Shown here: positions 32,139-33,290 of the stretch, in pieces
How positions within the stretch are numbered: position 1 is the stretch's first letter
Layout: each line of letters opens with the position of its first letter
Assembly (NCBI RefSeq): GCF_000010665.1
Contig: NC_012796.1
Coordinates: 2,819,501 to 2,883,500, forward strand
Direction: 5' to 3'
DNA length: 64,000 nucleotides
Origin: Solidesulfovibrio magneticus RS-1
GTDB lineage: Bacteria; Desulfobacterota; Desulfovibrionia; Desulfovibrionales; Desulfovibrionaceae
Position numbers and translations under genes: made by a program
The notes under the pieces: model-generated
The model's input: only the letters and a program-made list of their open reading frames with translations
Databases searched by the model: none
Told to the model about the DNA's origin: nothing

Positions 32139-32309
32139 ATGAACGATATCCTGATCTTTTGCGCCGTGCTCGTCGGCTGGTTCGTGGTGGTCCGCTTCGT
32201 CTTCCCCAGGCTCGGCATCCGGGGCTGAGGCATCGACACGGGGTGCGGTCCGCGCCCCGGCAAGCCTTCCTCTGCTCCAGGCGACAAAGAGGATTGGCCT
32301 AAAAGCTGA
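32139..32309 (+). CDS. Candidate small membrane selenoprotein (in-frame TGA at 32226)
   Basis: The ATG at 32139 opens 29 codons encoding a single membrane helix (ILIFCAVLVGWFVVVRFVF then PRLGIRG). The frame then meets TGA at 32226-32228, continues 26 codons as a hydrophilic Gly/Pro/Cys/Lys tail (GIDTGCGPRPGKPSSAPG, then DKEDWPKS) and stops at 32307-32309, 11 bp into the convergent barrel gene. Eighteen bases after the TGA is a GGTC in the loop of an 8-bp GC hairpin (32239-32259), the same spacing and loop as E. coli fdhF SECIS. Read as Sec, the product has 56 residues with U30 and C36. The ribosome-binding site is weak. If TGA is a stop, a 29-residue membrane peptide (32139-32228) remains. 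Confidence 0.45.
32239..32259 (+). promoter_or_regulatory. SECIS-like hairpin downstream of TGA
   Basis: CGGGGTGC (32239-32246), loop GGTCC (32247-32251), GCGCCCCG (32252-32259): eight pairs including one G-U. The loop starts with GG and contains GGUC, 18 nt after the TGA at 32226. Bacterial SECIS elements require guanines at the start of the apical loop and a spacing of about 16-37 nt; E. coli fdhF has GGUC at the same 18-nt distance. GC-rich hairpins are common in this genome, so chance cannot be excluded. Confidence 0.45.
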
Positions 32310-32865
32310 TCTTGAGGCCGATGTTGCCGCCGACGCTGTTGACGCCGTTATCGGAAAACGCGCCCAGATGCTGGTAACGTCCGGCAGCCTTGAGGCTGAC
32401 GTTCTTGCCCAGGGCCACGGACGCGCCGAGGTCGGCCTGGCCGGTTCCGGCCTGCTTGGACCCGTTGTAGGGCAGCTCCTTGTCGGAGAAAACGCCGCCG
32501 CCGCCCGCGCCGACGAAAAGCGTCCCCTTGGGCGTGCGCACGAAGTTCCAACGGGCCATGGCCGCGACGCCGGCGGCGTTGGTGGTTTCCTGTCTGGAGG
32601 CCATGCCGAGCGGCGTCGGCGTCTTGGTAGTCTGATCCACGGCGTAGCCCAGGCCCTCGGCCTCAATGGCCACGCCGTCGGCGACGTAATGGCCGGCCGC
32701 GCCGCCGTAGGTGCCGACCACGTTGACGTTGGGGTTGGTGGTTGCGTAGACGCCGCCCCGGGGTTCGACGTAGCTCGTCCCCTGGGTATACTCCTGGGCT
32801 GCGGCCAGGGCAGGCGGGGCCAGCGCGGCAAAAGCCGCGAGCAGGGTGGCGATGGCACGGTTCAT
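32299..32865 (-). CDS. Small outer-membrane beta-barrel-like protein
   Basis: A 188-residue exported protein. The signal peptide is MNRAIATLLAAFAALAPPALAAAQ. The rest is Gly/Ala-rich alternating sequence (GGVYATTNPNVNVVGTYGGAAGHYVADGVAIEAEG, GTLFVGAGGGGVFSD, NVSLKAAGRYQHLGAFSDNGVN) ending in a phenylalanine after alternating hydrophobics (GGNIGLKISF), the usual insertion signal for outer-membrane barrels. It resembles small OmpW/PagL-like eight-stranded proteins in layout; the exact family is not certain. Convergent with the candidate selenoprotein gene. Confidence 0.75.
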   Translation of the reverse strand: MNRAIATLLAAFAALAPPALAAAQEYTQGTSYVEPRGGVYATTNPNVNVVGTYGGAAGHYVADGVAIEAEGLGYAVDQTTKTPTPLGMASRQETTNAAGVAAMARWNFVRTPKGTLFVGAGGGGVFSDKELPYNGSKQAGTGQADLGASVALGKNVSLKAAGRYQHLGAFSDNGVNSVGGNIGLKISF

Positions 32866-32900: not shown

Positions 32901-33290
32901 TCAGTGCATGAACGACTTGACGGTTTGGGGTTTGGCCTCGGTCTTGGCCGCGGGCAGCTTTTCGAGAATCACGGCCGTGCCGTAGCAGGAAAAATAGCGT
33001 GAGCCGTCAGGATGGAAGGCCACGTTTTCCTGATAGCCGATGATGGCGTCGGCCCCGATGTCCAGGGCGCTGGCCGTCAGGCCATAGAAGGCGCACTCGG
33101 AGTCGAAGCCCCGGCCGCTGACCAGGCCAAGGACCCGCCGGATCTTGCGGCCTTCGAGCCCGGGGGTGGTGACCACCGGAAACTTGCCGCTGAAAAAGAG
33201 TTCCTTGGCGTTTTTGAGCCGCGCGCCCTTCTTGAGTTCTTCGTGGCGTTCGCGGATTTTCTTGTCTGAGCCGGTGAAGAGGGAAAGCAT
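32901..33290 (-). CDS. YbjQ-like (UPF0145/DUF74) domain protein
   Basis: A 129-residue cytosolic protein. The core FPVVTTPGLEGRKIRRVLGLVSGRGF, followed by SALDIGADAIIGYQENVAFHPDGSRYFSCYGTAVIL, is the YbjQ/DUF74 pattern: a conserved start, a G-rich turn, then ADAIIGY and a GTAV end. Structures of this family form beta-rich pentamers of unknown biochemical role. A short basic N-terminal helix (KKIRERHEELKKGARLKNAKE) precedes the domain. It lies 35 bp from the barrel gene on the same strand, and both may share a transcript. Confidence 0.75.
   Translation of the reverse strand: MLSLFTGSDKKIRERHEELKKGARLKNAKELFFSGKFPVVTTPGLEGRKIRRVLGLVSGRGFDSECAFYGLTASALDIGADAIIGYQENVAFHPDGSRYFSCYGTAVILEKLPAAKTEAKPQTVKSFMH

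Follow-up and report, generated by a model that had tools for sequence, protein, structure and literature searches.

An apparently undescribed family of small one-helix membrane selenoproteins predicted in Desulfobacterota, Acidobacteriota and a third deltaproteobacterial group

The question raised by positions 32139-32309 is whether a TGA triplet within a short open frame terminates a 29-residue peptide or is read as selenocysteine (Sec). The locus lies on the forward strand of the window, the whole 64,000-nucleotide stretch of Solidesulfovibrio magneticus RS-1 DNA that was analysed (NC_012796.1, positions 2,819,501 to 2,883,500). Its 56-codon frame comprises 29 codons (32139-32225), the TGA (32226-32228) and 26 further codons, ends with a stop codon at 32307-32309, and reads MNDILIFCAVLVGWFVVVRFVFPRLGIRG-U-GIDTGCGPRPGKPSSAPGDKEDWPKS-stop, where U denotes the TGA. 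The predicted product has an N-terminal membrane helix, Sec30, Cys36 and a polar tail. The last 11 bp (32299-32309) overlap the 3' end of a convergent frame in the ORF list (32299-32865, reverse strand), which has no Pfam match. In all of this, the coordinates, the lengths, the in-frame TGA and the 11-bp convergent overlap, the frame proposed in the initial annotation was borne out by reading the sequence. The weak ribosome-binding site remarked on there also recurs in the genus: an SD-like tetramer precedes 2 of the 13 members from the window's genus, against 42 of 51 other members. One ORF beyond the selenoprotein gene, at 32901-33290 on the reverse strand, lies a gene for a YbjQ-type putative heavy-metal-binding protein. 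From the frame itself, homologues with TGA in the same frame and homologues with Cys in its place, 32139-32309 is annotated as a selenoprotein gene of 56 residues plus stop; with Sec insertion judged by comparison, it very probably encodes a Sec-containing membrane redox protein.

In a protein search of 119 relatives, all 13 remaining genomes of the genus proved to have the frame, as did many others from its family and order; in nearly every case it contained a single internal TGA. A profile search that did not require a TGA matched 173 of 395 genomes (~44%) sampled evenly from the window's phylum, Desulfobacterota. It is these profile matches that supply the evidence on the internal codon, as the count of 64 internal TGAs in 64 members is circular, having come from a sequence finder that demanded one. 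The profile matches read have the form ...LPKMGVPT-U-MSDSC..., and matches without an aligned stop, together with two loci missed by the sequence finder, yielded four further true members, all with TGA. One profile match, in genome G025, was spurious on inspection. Every Sec-form member read has the TGA at the same column, with the frame running on to its own stop, and neither TAA nor TAG was found at the internal position among the members read.

The members read share a membrane helix and a P-[KR]-[LM]-G-[IV] motif before the TGA and nearly always have a Cys in a polar tail behind it. For the window's copy, alignment and the charge bias of the flanks predict a single transmembrane helix within 32139-32225, N terminus outside, followed by a conserved F-P-[KR]-L-G motif. 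In a 24-member alignment M1, P23 and G26 are invariant, W14 is conserved at 90% or more, and the column of Cys36 (codon TGC, 32244-32246, within the stem of the downstream hairpin) is also invariant. Between 14 and 32 residues follow the Sec across members; the end of the tail differs among them in both length and sequence and, with a Sec-Cys spacing anywhere from 4 to about 25 residues, the pair does not form a classic CxxC-type motif. In a small number of members, L125 and L224 among them, the tail as read lacks a Cys.

The same architecture was found beyond the phylum. Acidobacteriota, searched as the phylum of a Bryobacterales genome carrying a Cys form, gave matches in 58 of 247 genomes, mostly in the TGA form. 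A third group, entered from a genome labelled 'Deltaproteobacteria bacterium', gave matches in 24 of 266 genomes, again mostly with TGA. Among 273 Chloroflexi genomes the sole match was the query MAG itself, whose 'Chloroflexi' Cys form may thus be explained by a binning artefact or by rare transfer. Homologues thus do not end at the TGA, the outcome that would have spoken for a stop codon; the tail with its Cys is kept in the phylum and in two other groups. On comparative grounds this is a real and widespread selenoprotein family in at least three bacterial groups. The initial annotation had pictured a spread at the level of Desulfovibrio, and its selenoprotein reading stands while the extent it gave was an understatement, since the family occurs in several phyla. 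Two variations were seen in passing: third-group loci such as L219, L225, L226 and L231 have their Cys at or next to the C terminus, ~18-25 residues after the Sec as against 4-6, and contig C94 of genome G1014 carries two TGA-form copies ~2.9 kb apart.

Should translation end at the TGA, the product would be a 29-residue membrane peptide and the hairpin beyond it a terminator or an mRNA stability element. That reading would suit the first 29 codons being the best conserved part of the gene, but it does not explain why all three groups retain the Cys codon and its neighbouring residues behind the TGA. Nor does it explain the choice of codon: the internal TGA is used even in genomes of 34-45% GC, whereas the terminal stop varies (28 TGA, 23 TAA and 13 TAG in 64 members).

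It is further contradicted by homologues that carry a Cys codon and read straight through. A collection of 84,980 species genomes was scanned with a degenerate DNA pattern that had TGY in place of the Sec codon; 14 matches resulted. Eight are true members, with TGY at exactly the Sec codon and a continuous frame (one is cut by a contig end), as in PKLGIPT-C-MSGACGVP; the search for Cys at position 30 that had been suggested at the outset therefore succeeded, with open-frame homologues in eight genomes. The remaining 6 of the 14 are chance matches and not family members. Of the eight Cys-form genomes, six have only weak tRNA-Sec matches, the best of them scoring 40-48 bits where the window's genome reaches 84 bits. 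Genomes G510 and G517 have a strong tRNA-Sec match, yet carry the Cys form.

The hairpin downstream of the TGA lies at 32239-32259 on the forward strand, starts 10 nt after the TGA and reads CGGGGTGCG-GTC-CGCGCCCCG. Folding, with covariation in related members, identifies it as a putative selenocysteine insertion element (SECIS). It can be drawn with 9 bp and a GUC loop 19 nt after the TGA or with 8 bp and a GGUCC loop 18 nt after it, the latter being the SECIS-like hairpin and distance first proposed for this locus, and its energy is -16.6 kcal/mol. The published bacterial SECIS model places a stem-loop directly downstream, with G in the first two loop positions and a minimum free energy of at most -7.5 kcal/mol (PMC13188914). 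In the corresponding consensus the apical loop begins with G or GG, 16-37 nt after the UGA (PMC13188914). An in-range hairpin is present in 63 of 64 distinct members, with G in the first two loop positions in 61 of the 63 and the loop 16-37 nt after the UGA in 62 of them (18-24 nt in 59). A loop at 18-24 nt, G in the first two positions and an energy of -5 kcal/mol or lower occur together in 86% of the 64 members and in 3.0% of 1155 control windows from the same loci. Taken in isolation, the hairpin reaches the cut-off of the published model (-7.5 kcal/mol) in only 40 of 63 members. The family shares with the Escherichia coli fdhF SECIS and the bacterial consensus a loop that starts with G or GG 16-37 nt after the UGA; its stem sequences are unrelated, and many members differ in having a 3-nt GGA loop at 21-24 nt.

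Stability and pairing were compared with controls. When each tail of the 64 members was rewritten with synonymous codons from its own genome, the real hairpins were more stable than expected (mean z -1.53, with 60 of 64 below zero), as against a mean z of -0.34 for the sequence that precedes the TGA. A fixed, ungapped alignment was made of 17 members, related to one another and chosen from 27 with the same Sec-Cys spacing; the 10 left out were near duplicates and members with the hairpin in another register. A seven-pair stem is paired in 84.9% of its cells, compared with 29-44% when the stem is slid along the alignment, and covariation reaches 0.597, compared with at most 0.171 when slid; none of 500 shuffles was as high. 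Because pairing and covariation exceed those of the slid and shuffled controls, the stem is preserved while its sequence and encoded residues change. Judged by these comparisons, the SECIS hairpin is under selection, with strong compensatory changes. Within the genus, synonymous sites are four times more conserved after the TGA than before it (pS 0.10 versus 0.45). The hairpin holds these sites, so the value of 1.23 obtained within the genus for pN/pS beyond the TGA is uninformative on coding there and gives no independent proof of it. GC-rich hairpins are common in such genomes, which would suit termination at the TGA; this one has the loop and distance of a bacterial SECIS, however, and no T-run follows it in the window. 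Termination at the TGA is accordingly very improbable.

The window's genome contains the machinery for Sec insertion. Its tRNA-Sec match scores 84 bits and SelA, SelB and SelD all exceed curated cut-offs; the SelB and SelD family searches also match control genomes weakly, and only the top hits pass. Its SelD has one in-frame TGA. All four of selA, selB, selC and selD, listed for checking at the outset, are thus present. Among Acidobacteriota a strong tRNA-Sec is found in 46 of 53 genomes with the TGA form and in 104 of 194 others (Fisher p = 6e-6). In the window's phylum this co-occurrence has no power, since very few genomes lack a strong match and many of those few are fragmented. These data also bear on whether a near-cognate tRNA inserts Trp or Cys at the TGA instead of Sec. 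Acceptance of Cys at the Sec position in homologues would be compatible with such readthrough, but the SECIS geometry and covariation, the presence of selABCD and the association of TGA forms with tRNA-Sec among Acidobacteriota make it less probable even than termination. The assignment of 32226-32228 as Sec30, made in the initial annotation, is instead strongly supported by the conserved tail, by TGA in all Sec-form members read and its replacement by TGY in Cys homologues, by SECIS covariation and by selABCD.

Neither Sec nor Cys members match Pfam or NCBIfam (June 2026), the best scores being far below cut-off. A 2026 catalogue lists 119 prokaryotic selenoprotein families and subfamilies, among which is no small single-helix membrane family (PMC13188914). 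Members of the new family resemble the catalogued selenoproteins in TGA as Sec, a bacterial SECIS directly downstream, Cys homologues and a likely redox role, and differ in that no entry is of this small membrane kind (PMC13188914). The program deep-Sep, applied to Desulfomicrobium orale DSM 12838 (2,783,374 bases), reported no new selenoprotein (PMC12013277); genome G112, with a contig of the same 2,783,374 bases, holds a family member. To call a selenoprotein, this method depends on a known Sec homologue or on Cys homologues that rank among the top hits, and its authors state that families without Cys homologues may be missed (PMC12013277). The family would have escaped such searches on two counts: to gene finders it is no more than a 29-residue peptide, and deep-Sep needs such homologues (PMC12013277). 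As far as the open-access journal literature, the 2026 catalogue and the family libraries go, the family is apparently undescribed.

If the reading is true, a selenoprotein present in ~44% of the sampled genomes of a phylum has escaped dedicated searches, and it would rank among the smallest and most widespread bacterial selenoproteins. It also suggests that short ORFs with a terminal TGA conceal further mini-selenoproteins. The eukaryotic proteins SELENOK and SELENOS have one membrane helix and Sec in a polar cytoplasmic tail, and SELENOS pairs its Sec with a Cys. The new family would be a bacterial counterpart in layout to these small membrane selenoproteins of animals, sharing the small single-pass form and, by prediction here, Sec in a polar cytoplasmic tail; a relation in sequence is not claimed. 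It differs in placing Sec directly after the helix, where the eukaryotic proteins have it at or close to the C-terminal end of a long cytosolic tail, and in being bacterial with its SECIS inside the coding region.

The predicted orientation rests on helix-flanking charges: the charge bias of the C-terminal flank is above that of the N-terminal flank in 61 of 64 members and the reverse holds in none, which predicts an external N terminus and a cytoplasmic tail with Sec and Cys. Thioredoxin genes lie near 12 of 80 loci, 10 of them within 800 nt on the same strand, and CcdA/DsbD genes near 10 of 80; counted as independent lineages, they may amount to four or five for thioredoxin and three for CcdA. 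The thioredoxin neighbours accompany Sec forms of two phyla as well as Cys forms, and thioredoxin is also found near three third-group loci. The neighbourhoods are inconsistent overall, with no fixed operon, and neither thioredoxin nor CcdA directly adjoins the window's own copy.

Neighbours and layout together suggest a redox role. In the proposed mechanism, the downstream hairpin would direct SelB and Sec-tRNA to insert selenocysteine at the UGA (32226-32228). The 56-residue product would span the membrane with a single helix, N terminus outside, and hold Sec30 and Cys36 at the surface of the membrane, in a short, polar tail on its cytoplasmic side. There the Sec and Cys could form a selenenylsulphide that is reduced by thioredoxin, and the protein would pass electrons at the membrane, probably in a thioredoxin-CcdA/DsbD thiol relay whose partners are proposed from gene neighbours. 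A membrane-bound Sec/Cys protein reduced by thioredoxin is favoured because thioredoxin and CcdA/DsbD recur beside the gene and because of the predicted topology; if true, membrane thiol redox chemistry would have a component not yet recognised. The thioredoxin relay itself is judged slightly more probable than not. We know of no small single-helix component bearing Sec or Cys in the CcdA/DsbD-thioredoxin relay, the genes of which adjoin the family in several lineages. The full proposal is that an undescribed, widespread one-helix family, found in at least Desulfobacterota, Acidobacteriota and a third deltaproteobacterial group and with Cys versions mostly in non-Sec genomes, provides in its Sec/Cys tail a missing electron-transfer link from thioredoxin to membrane thiol systems; for this combined statement the balance is even.

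The selenoprotein might instead have another job, such as metal or chalcogen binding at the membrane, reduction of membrane peroxides or service as a small subunit of a membrane complex. The variable Sec-Cys spacing would suit a flexible ligand or reductant, the surrounding genes differ between loci (RND efflux and universal stress protein genes at some, hisD-purC-fabI at others) and form no fixed operon, and some Cys forms carry a fused DUF302 domain, itself of unknown function. Such a role is a tentative option, since thioredoxin and CcdA are the only neighbours that recur in several distant lineages and beside both Sec and Cys forms, which favours the thiol relay. The fusions to DUF302 (PF03625) occur in the third-group loci L222 and L228, with the match at the locus centre, and may hint at a partner. 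Some local arrangements repeat within lineages. In several Acidobacteriota genomes (L182, L183, L184, L186) the selenoprotein gene is preceded by genes for RND efflux and for a universal stress protein, and in Desulfovibrionales (L069, L071, L072, L077 and relatives) the order hisD, purC, fabI, as named from reading the sequences, recurs upstream.
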